A stretch of 64,000 nt of DNA from Bdellovibrionales bacterium (lineage in GTDB: Bacteria; Bdellovibrionota; Bdellovibrionia; Bdellovibrionales; JAMPXM01): assembly GCA_005808505.1 (NCBI GenBank), contig SYLX01000070.1:1-64000 (forward strand), given 5' to 3'. The position numbers and the translations under genes were made by a program. This document shows positions 3,752 through 60,714 of the stretch, in pieces. Every line of letters starts with the position of its first letter. Position 1 is the first letter of the stretch. The notes under the pieces are model-generated. The model was not told the DNA's origin. It worked only from the letters and a program-made list of their open reading frames with translations, and ran no database searches.

Positions 3752-4207
3752 CTTATCTCCCATCGTGGTGATGCTGCTTTTAACAAGTTGACCTTGTCGT
3801 TGTATAATAGCTCCGTCCCGCATTTTCGTACGAACTCCGTGAAAATATAAAGACGAAGATGTCCCTATTGGAAACCAACTCACTTCGTGTGTCCACACGA
3901 AAACTAAATTCGTTCATCGTTCATATGAGACGAAACTCCCTGCTCTCCTTTCGAGAACGCCCGACCCAGCAACCTAGACCTTCAGACTCGATTTTGAAGA
4001 ATTGCTACCTTAGGCCACAAATCGGACCTAAAATTTTCGAGCGTACAAAGACCCAGTCAAATACTGGAACTCTTCTAGTCACATAAAGAAGTTTAGTTCG
4101 GACCTTTCTCTTTAAGTCTCTTCTCGGTTTTTACTTTAGGCCGACGAACAGGCCGTTCTACCGAGCCCTCGTGACCAAGGTGTTCCAAATTTCAAATGGA
4201 GTAGAGA
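3752..4207. other. Divergent intergenic region, about 455 bases
   Basis: This region separates the divergent starts at 3751 and 4208 and must hold both promoters. I see no convincing coding frame, repeat or hairpin in it. The only coding signal is the rejected N-terminal extension of the minus-strand gene. Confidence 0.5.
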
Positions 4208-5170
4208 GTGAAAAAACAGACCGCGACTTTCTTGTTTGCAGCTCTTACGTTTGCGCAACCTACCCTCGCTTGCGTTAATACGTATTTTACGCGGATCGAT
4301 GGCTCGCTTGTCTCGGACCTCGCCGGCGGCGACGCACCGGACTTTGCGACCATTTTAACTAGCAAACAAACAACCCATTGGGATCGGGAACTAAAAGAAA
4401 CGGAAGCTCGCCTGGCGAGCGCGGATCCTGAGGAGAAGTGGCGCCACGAAGCCGATCTTGCCGTCTTAAACCTTCGCTTTAACAAAGTCGCCGAAAGCGT
4501 GACAACTCTAGAGCGACTCACGAGAGCGCAGCCAAAAGAATACATTCTTGCGGCCAATCTCGGCACCGCCTATGAACTCGCCGGTCGTGATGAAGACGCA
4601 CTTGTTTGGATAAAAAGAGCCATGGAACTTGATCCGTCATCTCACGAGGGAACCGAGTGGCTTCACGTCAAAATTCTGGAAGCCAAACTTGCCTCGAAAG
4701 CAGATCCAACATGGTGGAAATCCAATTCAGTGCTCGGTTTAGATTTTGGAAACGGAAAAAAGCCGAGGCGGCCAGAAGCTAATTTTGGCAACGAGCGAGT
4801 CGAGGCCGTCGAGAAAGCTTTGCTTTACCAACTTCGCGAACGACTTTCGTTCGTCAAACCGCCAGATGCGATCGTTGGCGATCTGCTTTTCGACTTCGCG
4901 AATCTTGTAGCTCTCCACCGAACGGTCGAAGCAGCTAAGCCCTTGAGCGAATTAGCACTGAGCTTCGAACCACCGCGGAAGGAGTTAGCGCAGGAGCGCG
5001 ATCGCCATTACCGATGGCTTTTGATGACAAAGCTGGATCCCGATACATTGATGAATATCGCTTTGGCCGCAATCGGGGCTGTAGCTCTCGCGATCCTGAT
5101 TGGCACCTATGCCGTGGTTCGACGTGTGCTCCGAAACCGCAGGAACGAAGAAGCTAAACAAGCGGCTTAA
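4208..5170 (+). CDS. Exported TPR-repeat protein with C-terminal membrane anchor
   Basis: Translation begins at a GTG with GGAG seven bases upstream. The 320-residue product has a signal peptide (VKKQTATFLFAALTFAQPTLAC), so the body lies in the periplasm. Residues of about 85-155 form TPR-like helix pairs (AILNLR-like ADLAVLNLRFNKV, YILAANLGTAYELAGRDEDALVWIKRAMELDPSS). Near the C-terminus is one strong membrane helix (ALAAIGAVALAILIGTYAV), followed by an Arg-rich tail that stays in the cytoplasm. A Cys right after the signal (LACVN) could be a lipid site, but the lipobox is imperfect. TPR proteins scaffold complexes, and no partner can be read from the context. Its stop codon overlaps the stop of the convergent HD gene. 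Confidence 0.75.
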   Translation: MKKQTATFLFAALTFAQPTLACVNTYFTRIDGSLVSDLAGGDAPDFATILTSKQTTHWDRELKETEARLASADPEEKWRHEADLAVLNLRFNKVAESVTTLERLTRAQPKEYILAANLGTAYELAGRDEDALVWIKRAMELDPSSHEGTEWLHVKILEAKLASKADPTWWKSNSVLGLDFGNGKKPRRPEANFGNERVEAVEKALLYQLRERLSFVKPPDAIVGDLLFDFANLVALHRTVEAAKPLSELALSFEPPRKELAQERDRHYRWLLMTKLDPDTLMNIALAAIGAVALAILIGTYAVVRRVLRNRRNEEAKQAA

Positions 5171-5655
5171 GCCAAAAGACGATCCAATCGACTCCACAGA
5201 TGGTCAGCGATCCCGGGCACGAAAAGCTCATTCTTGAACTCTGGATACTCGGTTCGGTACATCTCGAGTTTCCTAGCAACTTTTGCTGAAGCTTCGACGT
5301 TTGCGATGCGGTCACAAAGTTTGACGACGGTGGCGCCTCGATGGCCTCGAATTTTGGGATACGTCTTAGCCTTGCGCTCTTTTCTACTAGTACCCGGTTC
5401 ATCTGAGACTCTGTGGACGATGTCCCGTACTTCTCTTCCGAACGCGTTCTCGATTTCTTCGAGACTTACTGACGTATCTTCCGCGACATCGTGAAACCAC
5501 GCTGCCGCGGTGAGAATAGCATCGTTTCCAAAGCCTTCTTCACGCAGCACTCTTTGAACATGATCCAAATGAACTTCGTAAGGATGATCTCCATACCTTT
5601 GATCACCGTGCGCTTGAACGGCAAATGAGCGCGGATCGAACTTGCGAGCGACCAT
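5167..5655 (-). CDS. HD-domain phosphohydrolase, MESH1/small alarmone hydrolase type
   Basis: The 162-residue protein carries the signature of the RelA/SpoT hydrolase domain: an early HGDQRYGDHPYEVHLDHV segment, the metal-binding HD pair in AAWFHDVAEDTSV, and VVKLCDRIANVEA, matching the KLADRxxN box. Length and domain content match stand-alone hydrolases that remove pyrophosphate from (p)ppGpp, or act on related nucleotides. There is no synthetase, TGS or ACT domain. The start at 5655 has GAGGGAGAATAAT before it. The stop codon shares the TTAA bases with the stop of the convergent TPR gene. The substrate is inferred from the family, not shown; other HD hydrolases of this size act on different nucleotides. 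Confidence 0.75.
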   Translation of the reverse strand: MVARKFDPRSFAVQAHGDQRYGDHPYEVHLDHVQRVLREEGFGNDAILTAAAWFHDVAEDTSVSLEEIENAFGREVRDIVHRVSDEPGTSRKERKAKTYPKIRGHRGATVVKLCDRIANVEASAKVARKLEMYRTEYPEFKNELFVPGIADHLWSRLDRLLA

Positions 5656-5744
5656 ATTATTCTCCCTCGACTTCCCACCGGTGATCTTTTGAAACATTAT
5701 AAGAGAAGTCAACTTAAGCTGAAATAGAGCGAAAGACTCGCCGA

Positions 5745-6287
5745 ATGGACGAAACCAGAACTACGTGGATCGAGATCAAACCGGAAGACATGTTTCCGAG
5801 ACTGCTGAGAGCTGCAATCTACTTGGGATGGTTCATCGTTTTCTTTGCCGCTGGACTCGGGCTCGTTCTTCTCAGTCTATATTTTAAAAAGACGACGACA
5901 GCCGACGGCGTCTGGAGCATGGATCCCCTTGCCCTCCTCATTGAAGCAGGTCTCGCTATTTCTTTCGCACAGCTCACGATCCGCAAAGAACTGCGCCGTT
6001 GGGTGCCTCTTGAACGACTCGGCTCTCGTGCGTTGATCTTTAACGACGAAGGTCTTCGCTGCGCGAGCTGCCTATTGAGAAACGCGGTCGATGGTTCACA
6101 GCCCGCTGGTGACTATCTCGATATTCCCTGGGCTTCGATCAAGTTTGCGCGATTCACCCGCCTCTACAGGCATGGTGAATATTTAGAAATTTCGGCCGAT
6201 CAGCACTGGCACGCGATGCTCCCGGGCGGGCTTTCTCCAGACAAAAAGCAGATGATCCGCTATGAACTCAAAGAAAGAGGCAAGTAA
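5745..6287 (+). CDS. Two-helix membrane protein, first gene of a four-gene run
   Basis: The 180-residue protein has a membrane helix at about residues 25-47 (IYLGWFIVFFAAGLGLVLL), a second hydrophobic segment at about 62-80 (PLALLIEAGLAISFA), and a soluble C-terminal domain of mixed strands (ALIFNDEGLRCASCLL, IPWASIKFARF). That overall shape resembles small membrane proteins with a PH-like cytoplasmic domain, but I cannot assign a family. The ATG at 5745 has only a weak ribosome site. The stop is two bases before the start of the next membrane gene, so the two are surely translated together. Confidence 0.7.
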   Translation: MDETRTTWIEIKPEDMFPRLLRAAIYLGWFIVFFAAGLGLVLLSLYFKKTTTADGVWSMDPLALLIEAGLAISFAQLTIRKELRRWVPLERLGSRALIFNDEGLRCASCLLRNAVDGSQPAGDYLDIPWASIKFARFTRLYRHGEYLEISADQHWHAMLPGGLSPDKKQMIRYELKERGK

Positions 6288-6289
6288 AC

Positions 6290-7102
6290 ATGCGCTCAAT
6301 TGGCGACGTCTTCTCACAAATTGGTGATGCGTTCTCCGTTCTTTGGGAGCACAAAAAACTTTTGGTTTTTTCTTATGCCGGCACGCTGGCCCTAGTCCTT
6401 TGTTTCTACAAAATTTATCTCAGAGCCGATCAACTTGGATTCGAGATACCTGACTCGTTTGATCCCTCAAAATACTCGCTCATCCACCTCGGCGCTGCTG
6501 TCGCCCTGGCCATTGCGGGAAACTTCTCGCAAAACCTTATCTCGTTCGTCCTTATCCGCTGCTTCTTGGAAATTAACGACAAAAACGAATGCTCGCTCAT
6601 CGGCGCCTTGCTCAGCGGAATTTTGAACTCCGTTTCGATTCTTTTGTGGAGCGTGCTCGAAACTGTGGTGGGAGTCTTCCTTAGATTCGTTAAAGATTCC
6701 GATTCCTTTCTCGGAAGAGTCGCCGGAACGCTCATGTCTGTGGCTTGGTCGGCGGCGGCGTATTTTGTCCTGCCCATCATGGCGGCCAAAGGTGCAAACC
6801 CATTGAAGGCTCTTGATGAATCAAGTGAGCTTGTAAGCACAACTTGGGGCGCGCAGGCTGTCGGAGCCTTTGGTTTCGGAGTGATTTACTTCTTCTTCTA
6901 CCTCACGACGATTCCGTTCTTGTTTTCTAAATCGCCTTTCGCGGTTTATTACTTTATTGGTTATGTCTCCCTCATCCTCTCCGTTCACGCGGCTCATCTT
7001 GCTGTCTTTGGCGCGGATCTTTACCTCTACGCTGCTCACGAAAGAAAACGGTTCCGCGCGATAGATGATGAGAGCTTGAACAGCTCAGTTCGCGCAAGCT
7101 AG
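6290..7102 (+). CDS. Polytopic membrane protein, DUF6159-like
   Basis: The 270-residue protein has about six hydrophobic helices. Its opening (GDVFSQIGDAFSVLWEHKKLLVF) matches the layout of the uncharacterised DUF6159-type family, in which an amphipathic 'shift-to-membrane' helix precedes the first membrane span. Later helices include AALLSGILNSVSILLWSVL, VAWSAAAYFVLPIMA and YFFFYLTTIPFLF. The segment PLKALDESSELVSTTWG between helices is also typical of that family. The family assignment is from memory and is moderate at best. The gene is tightly coupled to the upstream membrane protein. No transport or enzyme motif is visible. Confidence 0.6.
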   Translation: MRSIGDVFSQIGDAFSVLWEHKKLLVFSYAGTLALVLCFYKIYLRADQLGFEIPDSFDPSKYSLIHLGAAVALAIAGNFSQNLISFVLIRCFLEINDKNECSLIGALLSGILNSVSILLWSVLETVVGVFLRFVKDSDSFLGRVAGTLMSVAWSAAAYFVLPIMAAKGANPLKALDESSELVSTTWGAQAVGAFGFGVIYFFFYLTTIPFLFSKSPFAVYYFIGYVSLILSVHAAHLAVFGADLYLYAAHERKRFRAIDDESLNSSVRAS

Positions 7103-39303: not shown

Positions 39304-40047
39304 TTAGTTCGCTTCGGCACCATCCGATATCAAACGAATCTCTTTTTGATCGTTGATGCTCCAGACATCAACGCGTCCGCTATTCCCTAAAGGCATCACG
39401 ACAAGAATTTCGAAGCCAGTCTCATCGGCTGTGCAACCTTTCTTGCAGTACGTTTCGTAGTCAGAAAGGCGTACGCTCTCAACGCGCTCATCGTATTTAA
39501 AAACCTCGCCGAGTTCGTTAGCCGCATCGTTGATATACGAATCTGTATCTAGGCGAGTTGGATCTTCTCGGAACTCCTCGGAGTCGCTATAGCTTGAAGG
39601 TCTAAAAGCGGCAACAAAACCAATTTTATATTTGATAAGCGGCTCATTAGGCCGCCACCCAATCGCTTTCAGATCGGTGGAATAGCGTTTGTATTCCGCG
39701 TGGAATGCTTTTTGTCCTGAGTAAAATGACGCGAGCGCCATTTTGGCTTCTGAGCGCCGCTCGCGTAGCTGTTCGTCAGTCAAGGTCTGCTTCTTCAACT
39801 GCTGATCTTCATCGAGACGCTTAACTCTTGAAATCTCCGCGGGATTAGACGCCGCCTGTTCCGATTTGGATGCCATCGGCCCAACCCCAATGACTTCTTG
39901 AGCCGATGTCTGAGTTGATCCGTCTTCGGGAAGAGGCTGAGCTGACCGCTGGAAGAAGTAAAAAAGGGCGAACACGAGGATCACCACGATCATGATTCCA
40001 ATTTTCTGCCGACGATGTCTTGCTAACGATAAACGCGCAGGTCTCAC
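39304..40047 (-). CDS. Membrane-anchored protein with pilin-like head domain
   Basis: The 247-residue protein starts at GTG 40047, whose bases overlap the stop of the GH114-like gene, so translation is coupled. A basic head (RLSLARHRRQK) leads into one membrane helix (IGIMIVVILVFALFYFF), not a prepilin helix. After a Gln/Ser-rich linker comes RRSEAKMALASFYSGQKAFHAEYKRYSTDLKAIG, which matches the start of the head domain of type IV pilin-like proteins, and then YKIGFVAAF and YCKKGCTAD. It therefore looks like a pilin head on a new stalk. It is the last gene of the operon that begins at 42668. Confidence 0.75.
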   Translation of the reverse strand: MRPARLSLARHRRQKIGIMIVVILVFALFYFFQRSAQPLPEDGSTQTSAQEVIGVGPMASKSEQAASNPAEISRVKRLDEDQQLKKQTLTDEQLRERRSEAKMALASFYSGQKAFHAEYKRYSTDLKAIGWRPNEPLIKYKIGFVAAFRPSSYSDSEEFREDPTRLDTDSYINDAANELGEVFKYDERVESVRLSDYETYCKKGCTADETGFEILVVMPLGNSGRVDVWSINDQKEIRLISDGAEAN

Positions 40048-41111
40048 GGGCAAGGCTCGTAGCGTGAACCATCCCGATTCGCAGGACCGAACCACAATGT
40101 GTAGGAATTCGTTCGAGCTTGATCGCAAAGGCTAGAGGAGAATGCGGACGATTCCGAAACGGCAACCGGCTTCTTCTTTGCCGCAAACGGCTCGTAGCGG
40201 CCGCAACTTCCGCTCGTGTAGCACCCGTCGGCACTGGCAAGATCAAAGTAGTCCACGAGATCTGCAGCTAGAAGGCCTGTGTTCGCTAACGATACGATCA
40301 TCTTTCGATCATGCGCTGCTAGGGCAAGGAACCGGGCGTAATCGATGGCCGTCGAGGACGTGAGCGGAAATCCGCTTGTGCTGAGGTATCCATCCGTTTG
40401 ATCCCAAAGCACGCCGTCGCAGCCTTTGGTCTTTGCGAGATCCAACCGTCTTTCCATGATCGCCCTCACATTAGCCGAGCGTGTATCCAGCCAATACTCG
40501 TTCGTTGAGCCCGATTGATTTCCGATATCACCTGCGTTGAAATCGGAGGCGTCTGGATCATTACTTTTGTAGACGCCCGCCGTTATCATGCAAATCAAAG
40601 TATGTCCTTCGCTCTTGATTGAATTGAGTTCGCCCGTCGTGTATCCAATTCCGTCGGCAAAGTAATACACGGGCGTCGGGATCGAACGTGGCGTATTGCT
40701 CCATTGCATGTAAGAAGCTTTGAGAGAACGAATTTCAATTCTCTCGGCAACGAATGTTTCTCCATTATATGTAAGTGTTTCGGCGCGAATAGGGTCGATC
40801 GAGAAATCAGCAGCCGTCAGACTTCGCGGTGTTGGCAGATTCAAACAGTTCTCACGCACGACAACTGCTGAACTTACGCTCGCAACAACGATTCTGGATT
40901 TCACGAACGTTCCGTCCGAACACGTGCCAGCTTGAATGTAGATCTTTCCGTCGTAAGTATGTCCCCCGCCCCCACTGTCACCGTTACTCGATTGATTGGA
41001 AAACAGTGGCAGCGAGCAATTTTGATAGAAGACAAAAGGAATGAGTAAGAGCAGCAGATTCGATAAGATTCGCGAGGCTCTTCTTGATTTTTCACTCGTT
41101 AGGCGAAGCAT
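40044..41111 (-). CDS. GH114-like glycosidase, membrane- or lipid-anchored
   Basis: The 355-residue protein has an N-terminal signal segment (ILSNLLLLLIPFVFYQNC) of the YQNC type, likely a lipoprotein. The body contains ICMITAGVYKS, YWLDTRSANVRAIMERRLDLA, CDGVLWDQTDGYL, TSSTAIDYARFLALAAHDRKM, SLANTG and DYFDLASADGC, the pattern of the glycoside hydrolase 114 (endo-alpha-1,4-polygalactosaminidase) TIM barrel. Acidic residues in these segments would be catalytic. The substrate is probably a GalN-rich exopolysaccharide such as Pel. Its ATG directly follows the stop of the regulator gene, and its stop overlaps the next start. Confidence 0.75.
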   Translation of the reverse strand: MLRLTSEKSRRASRILSNLLLLLIPFVFYQNCSLPLFSNQSSNGDSGGGGHTYDGKIYIQAGTCSDGTFVKSRIVVASVSSAVVVRENCLNLPTPRSLTAADFSIDPIRAETLTYNGETFVAERIEIRSLKASYMQWSNTPRSIPTPVYYFADGIGYTTGELNSIKSEGHTLICMITAGVYKSNDPDASDFNAGDIGNQSGSTNEYWLDTRSANVRAIMERRLDLAKTKGCDGVLWDQTDGYLSTSGFPLTSSTAIDYARFLALAAHDRKMIVSLANTGLLAADLVDYFDLASADGCYTSGSCGRYEPFAAKKKPVAVSESSAFSSSLCDQARTNSYTLWFGPANRDGSRYEPCP

Positions 41112-42668
41112 TTACAACCCCACTTTCAAATCGGTCGAGCCTTGTTTCGAGGCGATCTCATACTTGATGGCGCTTCCCGCCCCTCGCTTGATGATTTCGC
41201 CGTTCTTAATCGCCCACTGGCTAAATCGGTGGAACGTCGAACGCGACCACCCAACTTGCGTGCACGCCTCTTCAGCCGTAAAAGACGTGCCGCCTGGAAA
41301 TTGCTTTTCAATTGTTCGTTTTCGCGCCTGCATTGGATCAACGGAAGCGAGTTTCAGCGGTATTCGAAGAGCAAAGGATCCGAAGATCGATAGACGGTAG
41401 CTGCCGTTTATGAACCGAATCTCACAAGGCAAATCCGCATTTGCTAACCACTTATTTGTTCTAAATAGAATCTGACGAACTTTTCCTGGCGAGCTCTCCA
41501 CATTGAAATGTTCATCAGGATATACGGCCGAGAAGAGACTGCCCACACTTTGCGGAACGTAAAAGTCCCGGCTCATGGCCGTAAGAATTTGATGAACCTT
41601 ATTACCGTCGAGAGAGTCTCGGCCTCTTAGGCTCCCGGTTTCGAGATCAAAGTAAACATCTGCGGTCGGATCACCAAGCCTATAACTCTCGCTCGGTTGC
41701 GCCGCAAATTGCTTTAACACTCGTTCGCGATAGGCCTCAAGCGGCGTGCCGAAGATAAGATGATCATAGAGGGACTGATCAAACGCTATTTTGATCGTGA
41801 AGAGATCGGCTTCGCGGATACTGACCCAGTGCTCGCGCTCCTGAGCAAGTTGGCGAAAAGCAATGAGAGGCTTTGTCGAGTTCTCCTCGATTGACTTCAT
41901 GATCACTCGCCACTTTGTGATGAGAAGATGGTCAAAAGAAAATCCACTTCCCAATCGCGACGCTGCTTGTTCGAGGCTCAAGCGGGCCTGCTGGAAATCC
42001 TCATTTAAGAAGTAGCAGCGAGCCTTCTGCTCGAAGCAGTTTGCAGCAAGCCGATGGGCCGTTGCTCGCTCGGCCATCTCGATTGTTTGATCTAATAGGG
42101 CTGCGGCTTTTTCAGGTTCACCCATCTCAAGGTGCGCGCTACTCAAATTCACACGCGCGACGAGCTTAGAATAATCACCAGCTGACGAGCTCAGATAATC
42201 TTCTAAATAAGGAATGGCGAGCGAGTAGTCGCCGTTTGAGATGTAACAAAAGCCCATGAAGAGTGTTGCGTCCGGAGTTCTGCGCGCTTCTGGTGAAGAC
42301 AAGACATCCGTCAAAAGATCGATCGCTTCGGAAACAGATCCGTTTCGTGACAGCAAGACCGCGTACTCGCTAATTTCGGCGGTGTTTGCCGGCACGTCGA
42401 GCTTCTTCTCATTGCGCACAATCGGATGGAGTAATCTCAAGCCTTGCTTGACGAGGCCAACGCGTCGGCAAATGTTTGCGAGAGGAAGCCTTATCTCACG
42501 AGAGGCTTTCGCTAAACTCTCACTCGCCAAGCGTTTCGCAACTTGATCACCTCTTCCGGCCTTGATCAGCGAGTCGCACTCGGCGACGAGTGAAATGAGT
42601 TTTTGCGATGCTCTGCTTTGAGACACGGTCCTCCCGAAAACGGGCACGATCAAAGTTCTTCTAAACAT
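41112..42668 (-). CDS. TPR-type transcription regulator with C-terminal winged helix
   Basis: The 518-residue protein has TPR-like helix pairs through residues of about 80-260 (DATLFMGFCYISNGDYSLAI, ARVNLSSAHLEMGEPEKAA, AANCFEQKARCYFLNEDF), a middle domain, and a C-terminal DNA-binding segment: SFTAEEACTQVGWSRSTFHR, FSQWAIKNGEIIKRG. It has no signal peptide. The next gene's ATG follows its TAA directly, so it heads a three-gene operon with the GH114-like enzyme and the pilin-head protein. A regulator co-transcribed with an exported enzyme suggests control of that operon and perhaps of the divergent lyase at 42821. Confidence 0.7.
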   Translation of the reverse strand: MFRRTLIVPVFGRTVSQSRASQKLISLVAECDSLIKAGRGDQVAKRLASESLAKASREIRLPLANICRRVGLVKQGLRLLHPIVRNEKKLDVPANTAEISEYAVLLSRNGSVSEAIDLLTDVLSSPEARRTPDATLFMGFCYISNGDYSLAIPYLEDYLSSSAGDYSKLVARVNLSSAHLEMGEPEKAAALLDQTIEMAERATAHRLAANCFEQKARCYFLNEDFQQARLSLEQAASRLGSGFSFDHLLITKWRVIMKSIEENSTKPLIAFRQLAQEREHWVSIREADLFTIKIAFDQSLYDHLIFGTPLEAYRERVLKQFAAQPSESYRLGDPTADVYFDLETGSLRGRDSLDGNKVHQILTAMSRDFYVPQSVGSLFSAVYPDEHFNVESSPGKVRQILFRTNKWLANADLPCEIRFINGSYRLSIFGSFALRIPLKLASVDPMQARKRTIEKQFPGGTSFTAEEACTQVGWSRSTFHRFSQWAIKNGEIIKRGAGSAIKYEIASKQGSTDLKVGL

Positions 42669-42820
42669 TAAAGCACCTACAGGAGCTTTAGCTCAATCCC
42701 CGTCGCAAATCGAAACGCGCTGCCCTCTCACCAGATATGTAACTCGAAAAGACCGACCAACGGCGGTGAGATGGAGACAGATCCAAACCACAATTTCCAT
42801 CATGTACGTAAGGGGGAAAA

Positions 42821-45919: not shown

Positions 45920-46846
45920 TTAACGCTCGTTAAAGACCGCACATTCCTCAGGCGCGTCGTTCAAAACGTGAAGCGCTTTGACCAAAACTCGGCAAGTGAA
46001 TTTTTGAACTGTTTCGATTCGCTCGGGTGAAGGTTCAGCACCAAGCGCAAAGCCGTCTAAATGATCGATTCCGTCTTCTACACCCCCGTCTAAACCGAAG
46101 GGCGTAAGATCGCCGAGGCGCGGGAGTAACATGTGATCTGTGGGCACAAGACCATCGTTGTCACCGTAGAGCGAGACGATTCCACCCGACTTCTTCAAGC
46201 TCGGTGAGACCTCTTCGAACCGCTTGCGCGATCGAAGATAAAGAACGCGTGATGAGAGTTCAGCCAGTTGATCACTCCGTACTTTTGCCGCGCTCGCAGC
46301 CCAATCGGCTTTCACCGTCTCGGTCATCATCGAGAGAAAACCTTGATGTTGATTTCGAAAGTACCAATAGGCCGGAGTCCAAGCGTAGATGGATGTGTCC
46401 CATTCGTTCATGACGTGATCTGTATACGGTGATCCCATAAGCGGAGATTGCACGACGACGAGAAGTGCCACGCGCGCTTTCGTAAATTGCTCCGGGTATC
46501 GAAGAAGCGTATGGAGCGACTCTAAGCCGCCTTTGCTGTGAGCAATGATCAACAGTGGTCTTTTGCCATTTTCAAATTCCGAAAGTCGGGCTAGCTCACG
46601 GCGTATCAGCGCGACGTTATTTAAAACCGCAGTTTCTGATGACGGTCGAATTTCGCTCACGCTCGAGGCACCTAGATCACGCAGGAAGCGGATGTTTTCC
46701 GTGAAGTATCCCGGGATTTCTTCATTCTTGTAACCGGCAATAAAAACATAATGAAACTTATCGAGCGCGCTCGCGGCTCGTGCAGGCTTTAGCGGAAGCA
46801 ACGCGAATCCAAACAGGCTCAAGACAATCAAAAAGACTTTCATCAT
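45920..46846 (-). CDS. Secreted alpha/beta hydrolase, lipase-like
   Basis: The 308-residue protein has a signal peptide (MMKVFLIVLSLFGFALLP, cleavage ARA-A). The fold is alpha/beta hydrolase: YVFIAGYKNEEIPGYF at the first strand, LLIIAHSKGGLESL with the nucleophile Ser in the HSKGG elbow (AHSKG for the usual GxSxG), IVSLYGDNDGLVP with the acid and VEDGIDHLDGF with the likely catalytic His. The first Gly of the elbow is replaced by Ala, seen in some lipases. Substrate unknown, possibly a lipid ester. The start at 46846 follows GAGG. Confidence 0.8.
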   Translation of the reverse strand: MMKVFLIVLSLFGFALLPLKPARAASALDKFHYVFIAGYKNEEIPGYFTENIRFLRDLGASSVSEIRPSSETAVLNNVALIRRELARLSEFENGKRPLLIIAHSKGGLESLHTLLRYPEQFTKARVALLVVVQSPLMGSPYTDHVMNEWDTSIYAWTPAYWYFRNQHQGFLSMMTETVKADWAASAAKVRSDQLAELSSRVLYLRSRKRFEEVSPSLKKSGGIVSLYGDNDGLVPTDHMLLPRLGDLTPFGLDGGVEDGIDHLDGFALGAEPSPERIETVQKFTCRVLVKALHVLNDAPEECAVFNER

Positions 46847-47148
46847 CGACGACCTCACTCCGCCTCTCAGGCATGCCCGTACTTACCTCATGGATCAAGC
46901 TGTCATGGCGGTTCGCGTCCCGATTTGAAACAGTTTTCCCACATCGGCCTCATGGGCCTTGTCGACGCTTCAGTCAATGCGCATGCGCAAATCGTTCAGG
47001 GTCAATTCATCGAGACCCTGAGCAATGTTTCAACCTGAAACGAGGCTTCGAACTTGCGCCTTTTTCCGCAGGGTTCGGAAGCCTGGTCGAATTGGGCAGA
47101 TCCTTGCAAATCTTCTTTGGCAGGAACATCAAATACGGGAGGTTTCAG
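46847..47148. other. Divergent intergenic region, about 300 bases
   Basis: The gap lies between the hydrolase start and the repeat protein start and must contain both promoters. The plus frame stays open across it, but the sequence lacks a ribosome site and a signal peptide, so I regard it as non-coding. No hairpin or repeat stands out. Confidence 0.5.
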
Positions 47149-48075
47149 GTGAAGGCATCAAACGTACTCGGTCGCGCAGCCCTGTTAGCTATGGCTTTTA
47201 TCGGGGAATTCACTTCGGCGGAAGCGGCCTGCAACTACAGCGATCCTACCGTAAGTCTCAGTATTCAAAGCCCGGGCTCGGCTGCGGGCGTGCAAGTATC
47301 AGTCGCGCGCATTCACGCGAGCGTCTCGGCAGGCAATCTGCAAAGTGGCTCGAGCTCGAATTGCAGCAACTTCAGCAGTAGCAGCGCCTACATCTACGTT
47401 GGCAATCGCTATATCGGAAATGGATCAGTGAATTGGAATACCGCTGAAGTTGGGGATGGTCGCCATCTCATCCGCGTCGACGTCACGGATAGTAACGGCG
47501 GCCGCGCCTCGGCTCAACAATACATCGAAGTCCGAAACAACTGGATCCACCCTCTTGTCTGGAATCACCACGAGTACGTTAGGCTGAATCCTGACGTTGC
47601 GAACGCATTTGGTGGTGAACCCAGCCGCACCCTTTCGCACTGGCTCTATTACGGAATCCGCGAAGGCCGTCAGGCGACTCGCGCTTTCTCATCGATGGAG
47701 TACATGCAAAGCTATGGCGACCTTCAAGCTGCTTTCGGCGCCAATGGACCAGCTTTAGTTGACCACTACATCCGCCACGGCGTTCATGAGGGTCGAGTGG
47801 GCGTTTTCGCTCTTCGTCCGGAAGTTTGGAATGTTCACTACTACTACGCGATTCATCCTGATCTTCAAGCCGCATTCCCCGGCGACGTCGAGGCACTTAA
47901 GCGCCACTGGCTGGAGTACGGCGTAAACGAAGGTCGCCGTGCAAAAGAGACCTTCTCAGCTCCGAACTACCTCGCTAATCACGGTGATCTCCGTGCGGCT
48001 TACGGCTATAACTATCGCGAGGGCATTAAACACTACATCGTATACGGCATCTACGAAGGCCGAAGCGGTAACTAA
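47149..48075 (+). CDS. Secreted protein with four YG-EGR repeats
   Basis: The start is GTG 47149 after GGGAGG, giving a signal peptide (VKASNVLGRAALLAMAFIG, cleavage AEA-A). Residues of about 25-130 form an Ig-like domain (TVSLSIQSPGSAAGVQVSV, YIYVGNRYIGNG, HLIRVDVTDSNGG). Residues of about 135-308 are four tandem units of roughly 45 residues, each with Y...NPD(V/L)..AFGG.....HW..YG..EGR (for example LSHWLYYGIREGR, LKRHWLEYGVNEGR). This repeat is found in surface and cell-wall-associated proteins of many bacteria; its ligand is not established. A strong terminator follows. Confidence 0.8.
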   Translation: MKASNVLGRAALLAMAFIGEFTSAEAACNYSDPTVSLSIQSPGSAAGVQVSVARIHASVSAGNLQSGSSSNCSNFSSSSAYIYVGNRYIGNGSVNWNTAEVGDGRHLIRVDVTDSNGGRASAQQYIEVRNNWIHPLVWNHHEYVRLNPDVANAFGGEPSRTLSHWLYYGIREGRQATRAFSSMEYMQSYGDLQAAFGANGPALVDHYIRHGVHEGRVGVFALRPEVWNVHYYYAIHPDLQAAFPGDVEALKRHWLEYGVNEGRRAKETFSAPNYLANHGDLRAAYGYNYREGIKHYIVYGIYEGRSGN

Positions 48076-57855: not shown

Positions 57856-58095
57856 CTTTTATCCCGTGGGTTTGACTCGACCATTTTACCAGGGATGCAT
57901 GCAGGCTCAAAAGCGTGGCCGAAGATGTAGACTAACGTATTGACGGCTACCTGACCGGTCCTGGAGGCCTTCGGAACACAATTTCGATCTCATTACGAGA
58001 CGTTTACTTCTCCTTTCTGTCGCATCAGTTCGAGAAGATTTATCCTGAATGCGTCGAAATTGGGGAAAAGCGAGCCGATCTTACGGGGGCACTTC

Positions 58096-60714
58096 GTGAA
58101 GAAGCTATGGGTAGCTGCATGTCTTTTTGCATGCCTCGGAATCATTGCGGGATACCAGAACTGCGGCGGCAACTTCGAATCTTTGCAAAACTTAGAACTC
58201 AATAGCCATCCTTCACTCGATATCGATCGGTCCTTCGTCTCGGTTGCCGATGTCGGCGAACCGCTTACGCTCAAGTTCGAGTTCAACAATCCTGGCAACA
58301 TGCAAAATTGGCATACGCGAAAGGGTCTTAGCGATGGCCGCGTGAAAACTTCCAGCGAAGGGACCGGAATCCTTTGGGCACAAGTCAACGGGAATGACCC
58401 ACAGCTCATCAACGAGTCCGTTGATATCAATGCTGACGATGTTCGCGTCATCAAAATTCGCGTCAGCCGCGCGCCCACACCGGACCGCACTCTTCGCTTC
58501 TTCTGGGCGAACGAGGGTCAAGAAAGCTTCACGGCTCAGCAGAGTGTTTCGATTCAGCTATCGACCGAGGATGCCTATCGCGAGTACGAACTTCCTGTGG
58601 ATAAATCGCCTCTCTGGTTCGGGCGCATTCGCAAGATCCGCATTGATCCAGGCGAGACGCTCGGTGCGAGCGCTCAAGCACCGTCTGCCATCGGCATCGA
58701 CTACATCCGATTCTTTTATCCACGTGGCCGCTTCCAGGGCGACATTCTCACCGTGGATTCTCCGTCCGTCGATCCGATGTCGGTAGCGTCGATGCTTCGG
58801 CAGCTCGACAATTTTCCTCTAAAAGCGGCACCCCCAACACGTCGGGTGAGCGTCTACCTTCAAAGCGAACGTCTTGATAGGCTCAAAGAGAAGCTGACAA
58901 ATTCCGCCGCGCCAGTCGTTTTGAAGTATCTGAATGAAGCAAACCTTCAACCCGAGTCAGTTAGTGTTGCTCAGCTTCTCGATACGGTCTCATCACCGGC
59001 CGTTCCCCGTATTCCGCGCGGGATTGCATTTGAAACTAACGTGGACGCTGAAGACAACGTCGCAACCAACGATCCACTTTGGAGAAGAATCGAATATGTT
59101 CGCGACAACAATTCATCTGAAGCGCTGGCCGCAACCCATCTGATCTCGTCGGCTCGCGAAGTTCGTCGCGCCCTCGTCGACTCGCGTGCTGACGCTGCCG
59201 CAAAGGCATCGAAACGAGAAGTTGCGCCACCTTTCTTCATCAAACTCGAGCATTCCAATCGGATCCGGGATTTTGCAGTCTTCGCTCATTTGGCTCGACA
59301 AAATCAGTCCACGCTATTTCGCGATCTAGAGGACCTGCTTCTCGCAGTAACGTCGCTTAGAAACCGCGACGGTTCTTACGTCGCGATTGTCGGAAACCCG
59401 CAGGTCGATGCACGCGACGTCGGAATGGAGAAATGGACGCCGTTTGCCGTCTACGTTCAAGCCTATGACCTTTACACTCTTGGTCTTGAACGAAAACTGT
59501 TTACGACAAACGACGATCGCCACGGACGCATTCTTCACTTCATCACCCAGGTCACGGCAAATGCTTTACGCGTGCACGATCGATGGGTTCAGGGTGATGC
59601 GCGTGAGTCCGATCCCAACGAGCAGATCGGCTGGAGTCGCAGCGGCAACAACCATCAGAGTTATCACAACAATGCGATCTACGTAGGTGCGGCTGCCCTG
59701 CGCGCGAACAATCGGCGCGACTTAAGCTACGCTTTGAAAACGTACGCGGTGAGTTCAAACGCAAACCGGATCGGTGGGCCTCGCATGCCTACAATCAAAG
59801 AGTCGCTGCGCCCTCGCGGTTATATCGGCATGCAAAAACTTGCGATCATGAAGCAATCGCCCGATTGGGGTGGCGAACAGAAATCTCCAGATGCGCAAAC
59901 TTCGTTCGTAAGGAGTTCCGATCCCAACCGTTCTTTTGAAAACGGAGAAATTTGGGATCGCTACCGCAACAATCAGGTTGAAGGTGGACGCAATCCTACA
60001 CGGCGCGTGGCTCGTGGACTCGATTACGCCTTCGTCAATCTCGGCGGCCTCGCAATGCTTGCCGAAGCCGCAACCATGCAAGGAGACCTCTTAAAACGCG
60101 CCGATAAAACCTACGTCACTTTCTTCGAATTCGATGATTTAGGCGTCGGGCTCCGTGATTCCTTGAAATTTTATTTACCGTTTTTAGTTCACTTCAATCC
60201 CGTTGGCGGCGGGGAACTCCTGTACACGCAACAGAATCAACCTCTCGCGAAACTCACAACTTCGGAAACGATCAATCGTTTCCGTCGACGGAACCCCTTG
60301 CCGCTTGAACACGCCGATTTCGATGCAATAGGCTTACGTGGTGCTTACGACATGTATTATTGCCGCAACGTCGCCAATGCGTCGAACCCTGAGTATAAGG
60401 CGATCTGTAAGATGAGTTGTAAGCCTCAGTCGGCCGACTACAATTCCCTCTACCCGAAAGGCGGAGCTACCGAAGCGTCTTGTCGTGTCGTAGCTCAGCG
60501 GACTTACACGTTTGATCTTTTCTGGATGCAAGTGGCACCGCTTGCAGAACGTTATCAAATGCAGAGTAAAGAGCTATGCAAAAAAGTCGCTGCCGCCTAC
60601 ACAGAAACGAAACGGCGTGATCTTGCGGTCGCAAAAGAAGCAGGTGGCACGACGGGATCTCCATTCATGGCAGCGCTCTTCGACATCAAACCCAACTGCG
60701 GGAAGTTCCAATAA
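58096..60714 (+). CDS. Large alginate-lyase-like lipoprotein with beta-sandwich domain
   Basis: The start is GTG 58096 after GGGGGCAC; the signal VKKLWVAACLFACLGIIAGYQNC is of the YQNC lipoprotein type. Residues of about 40-225 form a beta-sandwich (LTLKFEFNNPGN, GILWAQVNG, IKIRVSRAP, IGIDYIRFF), probably carbohydrate-binding. The remaining 640 residues are mostly helical, with RDFAVFAHLARQNQSTLFRD, WTPFAVYVQAYDLYTLGL and RSGNNHQSYHNNAIYVGAAAL, in the style of the (alpha/alpha) toroid of alginate lyases (PF05426-like), where N-N-H and Y are catalytic. Substrate unclear. Divergent from the PAD-like gene. Confidence 0.65.
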   Translation: MKKLWVAACLFACLGIIAGYQNCGGNFESLQNLELNSHPSLDIDRSFVSVADVGEPLTLKFEFNNPGNMQNWHTRKGLSDGRVKTSSEGTGILWAQVNGNDPQLINESVDINADDVRVIKIRVSRAPTPDRTLRFFWANEGQESFTAQQSVSIQLSTEDAYREYELPVDKSPLWFGRIRKIRIDPGETLGASAQAPSAIGIDYIRFFYPRGRFQGDILTVDSPSVDPMSVASMLRQLDNFPLKAAPPTRRVSVYLQSERLDRLKEKLTNSAAPVVLKYLNEANLQPESVSVAQLLDTVSSPAVPRIPRGIAFETNVDAEDNVATNDPLWRRIEYVRDNNSSEALAATHLISSAREVRRALVDSRADAAAKASKREVAPPFFIKLEHSNRIRDFAVFAHLARQNQSTLFRDLEDLLLAVTSLRNRDGSYVAIVGNPQVDARDVGMEKWTPFAVYVQAYDLYTLGLERKLFTTNDDRHGRILHFITQVTANALRVHDRWVQGDARESDPNEQIGWSRSGNNHQSYHNNAIYVGAAALRANNRRDLSYALKTYAVSSNANRIGGPRMPTIKESLRPRGYIGMQKLAIMKQSPDWGGEQKSPDAQTSFVRSSDPNRSFENGEIWDRYRNNQVEGGRNPTRRVARGLDYAFVNLGGLAMLAEAATMQGDLLKRADKTYVTFFEFDDLGVGLRDSLKFYLPFLVHFNPVGGGELLYTQQNQPLAKLTTSETINRFRRRNPLPLEHADFDAIGLRGAYDMYYCRNVANASNPEYKAICKMSCKPQSADYNSLYPKGGATEASCRVVAQRTYTFDLFWMQVAPLAERYQMQSKELCKKVAAAYTETKRRDLAVAKEAGGTTGSPFMAALFDIKPNCGKFQ

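Follow-up and report, generated by a model that had tools for sequence, protein, structure and literature searches.

A probable regulator and surface lipoprotein cassette carrying a GH114 domain in a Bdellovibrionales genome

Genes and features at the locus

Three adjoining genes on the reverse strand and one divergent gene make up the locus, which lies inside a window (the whole stretch of DNA analysed) of 64,000 nucleotides. The features referred to below are as follows.

39304..40047 (-): gene 3, a membrane-anchored PilA-head-like protein of 247 aa; not conserved as part of the unit
40044..41111 (-): GH114 lipoprotein of 355 aa, by its matches to Pfam PF03537 and to the Ega3 structure 6oj1
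40095..40667 (-): GH114 domain, with the nucleophile Asp kept and the general acid/base Glu replaced by Asp
40731..40979 (-): constant N-terminal module of the GH114 lipoprotein (GGGGHTYDGK...C...RENC...), from module alignments
41112..42668 (-): TPR-double winged-helix regulator of 518 aa, from the ORF call and Pfam TPR_12 (E 1.9e-13)
42698..42799 (no strand assigned): conserved intergenic stretch, a candidate operator/promoter, alignable with the lyase-regulator gap at locus G076:C10
42821..44605 (+): secreted PelN-like beta-helix lyase with a CBM_4_9 domain, divergent from the regulator

The TAA of the regulator directly abuts the ATG of the GH114 gene (a junction of 0 bp), and the GTG of gene 3, at 40047, sits in a GTGA overlap with the GH114 gene (a junction of -4 bp). 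This GTG start is supported because the orthologs of gene 3 begin near the same place. Judging by the gene junctions, the three genes would be co-transcribed. A sequence-only reading of this DNA had described three touching ORFs with these domain labels, and the ORF coordinates together with the Pfam, NCBIfam and PDB matches bear the description out, including the likeness of the middle gene to GH114 (Pfam Glyco_hydro_114, E 4e-43).

The product of gene 3 consists of a transmembrane helix and a linker, followed by a head that faintly resembles Myxococcus PilA. The head matches PilA families over short stretches and with scores under the curated cut-offs (PF14245, E 0.0014; NCBIfam PilA_Myxo, E 4.8e-5, residues 93-134), and it also matches the PilA of PDB entry 8tj2 (E 0.0056). 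The prepilin leader G/FTLxE is missing from gene 3 (P0001) and from its orthologs, all of which begin with an ordinary transmembrane helix. Such leaderless proteins, which combine a PilA-like head with a Pro/Ser-rich stalk and a transmembrane helix, are found phylum-wide in varied contexts (L042-L047).

The same earlier reading took the regulator, the GH114 protein and the pilin head for one co-regulated system that, with the lyase and a nearby pseudopilin, could form a matrix-degrading surface apparatus. Such a system draws on the tight junctions and on the row of three export-associated or regulatory genes, and gene 3 may well share the transcript in the window's genome. We nevertheless find it improbable, as gene 3 is absent next door at all four of the other GH114 cassettes (G000:C33, G001:C405, G076:C9 and G076:C10) and its six best orthologs (30-42% identity) sit in unrelated contexts, adjoining purT, purE, a fur-like gene and others (names read from sequences). 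Being absent beside the other GH114 cassettes and having its orthologs elsewhere, gene 3 is best taken as an independent gene that lies downstream by chance. Thus the gene order in relatives, which the sequence-only reading had itself named as a test, does not sustain a conserved three-gene unit, and the reported trio is a pair (regulator and GH114 lipoprotein) plus an unrelated neighbor gene. Of the proposed system, the regulator, the anchored GH114 lipoprotein and the divergent lyase stay together as a unit, and the pilin-head gene drops out. We found no evidence linking the pseudopilin to it.

A regulator family paired with a constant lipoprotein module

The regulator has a TPR part (residues ~19-320) followed by an OmpR-type winged helix-turn-helix (~328-437) and a second one (~445-505). 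Its AlphaFold2 model is of high confidence (pLDDT 87.3, pTM 0.79), and the topology of TPR superhelix, OmpR-type winged helix and second winged helix was read from the secondary structure of that model. The top fold matches of the TPR part are Rap/NprR receptors (VIA, Z 20.9 over ~300 residues at 11% identity), with generic TPR proteins close behind (LGN, Z 19.7; MalT, Z 17.6); domain III of MalT is also among the regulator's profile matches (E 1.3e-5). Four polar residues are near-invariant in 60 paralogs, N174 (98%), N210 (87%), K252 (93%) and R285 (100%), and by our repeat numbering they would line the groove at successive TPRs. Their conservation hints at a common type of ligand among the paralogs, perhaps peptide-like.

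The regulator belongs to a paralog family of the Bdellovibrionota, and 63 of the 368 genomes searched in the phylum have it. Among 78 relatives the family is found in 25-26 genomes, with 7 copies in the window's genome and up to 12-15 elsewhere. A regulator profile from a narrow alignment, run on named genomes within the phylum, matched only Bdellovibrionales, Bdellovibrionaceae and Bdellovibrio MAGs.

What lies beside these regulators is, in many cases, a lipoprotein with a constant front. In a search with the GH114 lipoprotein as the single query, 19 of the 20 matches that cover its N-terminal part adjoin a regulator paralog, and most of them have no GH114 domain. When the regulator-adjoining lipoproteins are aligned, they have in common a lipobox (usually FQNC), a short low-complexity linker, the motif GNGxGY[DEG]GK and two invariant Cys. 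The resulting module is ~80 residues long (GNGxGYxGK…C…C), the C-terminal domains that come after it are unlike one another, and the whole proteins span 240-840 aa. The window lipoprotein follows this order, with a signal peptide, a YQNC lipobox (Cys32), the constant module and then the GH114 barrel; in its model the module is predicted to be a small beta domain (pLDDT about 90).

The FQNC lipobox was considered as a mark specific to the cassette and rejected, since the genome has it in many places (45 vs. 17 in the reversed control). FQNC/YQNC replaces the usual LxGC-type lipobox widely in genome G000, and an 884-aa lipoprotein elsewhere in the window (58060-60714) also bears a lipobox of this type.

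Searching the 78 genomes with a module profile gives 76 genes, spread over 19 genomes that all have the regulator. Within 2.5 kb of a regulator lie 53 of the 76 module genes, against 1.1 expected from gene numbers and genome sizes. Sequences from the vicinity of regulators went into the profile as seeds, a bias that affects neither the single-query count above nor a count in eight held-out genomes; there, at least 11 of the 21 module genes have a regulator no more than 2.5 kb away (four regulators per genome scored). In the phylum set, a hand count gives the regulator in 26 of 27 genomes with the module and in 37 of the 341 others. Independently of the module, a lipoprotein with an NC-type lipobox adjoins 40 of 61 regulators, compared with 25 of 354 other nearby genes.

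The pairing is not obligatory, because about one third to one half of the regulators have no recognizable module or lipoprotein next door. Order and orientation also vary: the regulator may come first (often with a 4-bp overlap), the lipoprotein may come first, or the two may diverge. As an example, a Bdellovibrio sp. Amazon MAG (L136) has two divergent lipoprotein and regulator pairs in tandem (74-2361 and 3907-6372). In two different genera a GAF-domain-like protein is encoded directly 3′ of a module lipoprotein (L068 7652-8896; L109 2045-3283). Genomes G006 (e.g., C43, C122) and G241 (e.g., C12, C66) each carry many module lipoproteins, of 700-860 aa, several of them with no regulator detected nearby; this subfamily has apparently expanded.

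The two partners also diverge together. Distances between regulators correlate with distances between modules (Mantel r 0.40, p 0.0002; r 0.27, p 0.007 with the GH114 pairs removed), and the correlation with the module is higher for the TPR part (r 0.43) than for the winged helices (r 0.29). Common descent of the two genes as a pair suffices to explain this correlation.

One could read the same correlation in another way, with the regulator as an RRNPPA-like peptide receptor and the signal derived from the exported lipoprotein beside it, whether whole or as a fragment. Rap and NprR as the closest structural matches of the TPR domain, near-invariant polar residues at positions that our repeat numbering places in the groove, and a neighboring gene for an exported product would all fit. 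On the other hand, generic TPR superhelices score nearly as well, the winged helices are C-terminal, unlike those of NprR or PlcR, and the covariation with the module is accounted for by descent. Moreover, the signal-peptide sequences do not covary with the regulators (r -0.08), and on that result the signal peptide of the lipoprotein was rejected as the regulator's ligand. We give the peptide-receptor explanation little credence. Equally improbable is a bolder reading, a large undescribed family of paired regulators and modular surface lipoproteins where every TPR regulator would be matched to its own partner's product (peptide or module), as a Gram-negative counterpart of the peptide-receptor cassettes that turns the surface heads of a repertoire on and off individually. 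A role in anti-phage defense was also considered and dropped, as PADLOC gave no matches.

We consider it likely, instead, that the regulator and the GH114 lipoprotein form a two-gene cassette, one of many copies that arose in the Bdellovibrionota through duplication and divergence. The cassette recurs dozens of times in Bdellovibrio relatives, and what we observe of it is domain content, recurrent adjacency, a common module, variable C-termini, correlated divergence, and the block with the lyase at a second locus described below.

Variable heads, the GH114 domain and the divergent lyase

Among 38 partner C-termini we find GH114 in 5, beta-helix in 2, and DUF4214, NHL and Lcl_C in one each; 2 of the 38 have weak matches to GH39 or to a polysaccharide lyase, and most partners have no Pfam match. 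The 88 neighbors of cassettes include beta-helix domains in 5, CBM6 three times and CBM4_9 three times; in 126 genes further out, no such domain ranks with the most frequent families. These counts hint at a carbohydrate theme for the cassette neighborhoods, though the carbohydrate-active neighbors are a minority.

GH114 itself is rare, being found in 4 of the 78 genomes. By its Pfam score (147.8 bits, cut-off 27) the window domain is a member of the family, and it matches the Ega3 structure 6oj1 both by sequence (E 2.8e-26) and by fold (Foldseek E 1.7e-18, TMt 0.80). The other module-bearing GH114 lipoproteins beside a regulator are those of the four cassettes that lack gene 3.

The catalytic pair of Ega3 is Asp189 and Glu247 (PMC12054363). 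Aligned to Ega3, the window protein conserves the nucleophile Asp and several invariant core residues, and has an Asp at the position of the acid/base Glu247. In the cassette at G001:C405 both catalytic residues are lost (Thr/Gly) while the fold residues are retained. The Asp/Glu pair is intact in 3 of the 5 cassette GH114s, and by sequence reading both residues are also intact in two GH114s without the module (G008:C636 and a second GH114 gene at G076:C9).

The activity of the window protein is uncertain because an Asp stands for the acid/base Glu; an active enzyme, a slow one and a binder are all conceivable. The last of these amounts to an alternative for the whole GH114 head, which would be polysaccharide-binding (lectin- or sensor-like) and no longer a hydrolase, with the cassettes displaying binders and the lyase doing the cutting. 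The substitution in the window, the loss of both residues at G001:C405, and the many partner lipoproteins without a known catalytic domain point that way. But the pair is kept in most cassette GH114s and the nucleophile is kept in the window, a single wrong base in a metagenome assembly could turn Glu into Asp, and in other glycosidase families Asp can act as the acid/base. We regard a binding head as a tentative possibility. It would fit within the cassette reading, altering its last step alone. Matrix degradation, as suggested in the sequence-only reading, is plausible, though made uncertain by the Asp in place of the acid/base Glu.

The divergent gene at 42821 matches the PelN model with an E-value of 5.7e-65, below its equivalog cut-off. 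The layout of lyase, regulator and GH114 lipoprotein recurs in another genus at G076:C10, where identity to the window is 55% for the lyase, 49-51% for the GH114 protein and 36-37% for the regulator. In a further case, at G000:C228, a gene with beta-helix and CBM6 domains is divergent from the regulator and a module lipoprotein lies downstream, as in the window.

The intergenic gaps of the window and G076:C10 align with a Smith-Waterman score of 43.5, reached by 0.2% of shuffles. The best-aligned core is TCGAGTTACA...TCTG..GAGAG...GCGTTTC, ~80 bases before the regulator. This conserved stretch is a candidate control site on the basis of the alignment, and the divergent lyase probably shares its control region with the regulator and GH114 pair. 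That the lyase belongs to the unit, as had been suggested, agrees with the common layout and with the conserved intergenic stretch at the second locus.

We found no operator motif common to the whole regulator family upstream of the regulators. The top-ranked 8-mer, TTCGAGTT/AACTCGAA, is yet within the shuffle range for a best k-mer; we did not accept it as an operator because its counts are 5/60 vs. 2/310 for other genes, with two occurrences inside coding sequence. A scan for promoter and terminator consensus sequences gave matches no more frequent than in shuffles.

A working model and its relation to known systems

In our best reading, a surface lipoprotein whose head can be exchanged would be under the control of a local regulator; in this copy the head would be aimed at a galactosamine-rich matrix polysaccharide. 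The TPR groove of the cytoplasmic regulator would sense a signal, and the winged helices would bind the regulator's own upstream region, which here may serve the divergent lyase as well. The lipoprotein is predicted to be exported, lipidated at the Cys of its Q-N-C lipobox, and held on the cell surface. Its C-terminal domain, here GH114, would bind or cut the galactosamine-rich matrix polysaccharide, as suggested by its family, and the secreted beta-helix lyase would attack acidic polysaccharide.

Ega3 of Aspergillus fumigatus (with the related GH166 PelA and GH191) has in common with the window protein the fold, the family and the nucleophile Asp. The window protein differs from it as a lipoprotein of bacterial origin that carries a further module at its N-terminus, has Asp at the acid/base position and is tied to a dedicated regulator.

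In the two-gene form of RRNPPA systems, the receptor is encoded beside an exported product (PMC10075063). The Gram-positive Rap/NprR/PlcR group resembles the cassette in that a TPR superhelix regulator adjoins an exported product, a similarity at the level of the fold only. Here the host phylum is Gram-negative, the regulator model places two winged helices at the C-terminus and lacks the N-terminal xre/Cro-type HTH of the DNA-binding RRNPPA members, and the partner (among ORFs of at least 70 aa) is a full-sized lipoprotein as opposed to a short propeptide. Similarly, MalT-type activators couple a TPR superhelix sensor to DNA binding, whereas our regulator has neither an ATPase domain nor a LuxR-type HTH.

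Within the same phylum, the mosaic adhesive trimer (MAT) fibers of Bdellovibrio are built from related surface proteins that have one part in common and differ at the tip; one of them has been shown to bind prey glycans (PMC10769870). The cassette lipoproteins likewise combine a shared part with different tips. The MAT proteins form trimeric fibers, with no paired regulator mentioned in the abstract or headings of that paper, whereas here we have module lipoproteins, the window's being modeled as a beta module plus a barrel.

Polysaccharide utilization loci (PULs) also encode jointly a local regulator, a surface lipoprotein and a secreted polysaccharide-active enzyme. They use another class of regulator, and neither the SusC/SusD pair nor a transporter is seen among the 25 most frequent families of immediate cassette neighbors. 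The cassette works most like locally regulated surface-enzyme loci, and we do not claim membership in either the RRNPPA or the PUL systems.

We found no description of the regulator-lipoprotein cassette in Pfam, NCBIfam, PADLOC or the open-access literature. Bdellovibrionota and their uncultured relatives must select among many surface tools, and one regulator for each lipoprotein with a fixed front and a variable head would offer a handle on how such a repertoire diversifies and is selectively expressed. The module and the architecture of the regulator, neither of which has a name, can be searched for and tested, and the cassette setting now includes a hydrolase fold of the Pel/galactosaminogalactan type.

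Elsewhere in the window, at 46780-48075, there is a secreted protein that ends in repeats of ~45 residues (...HPDLQAAFPGD...LKRHWLEYGVNEGR...).
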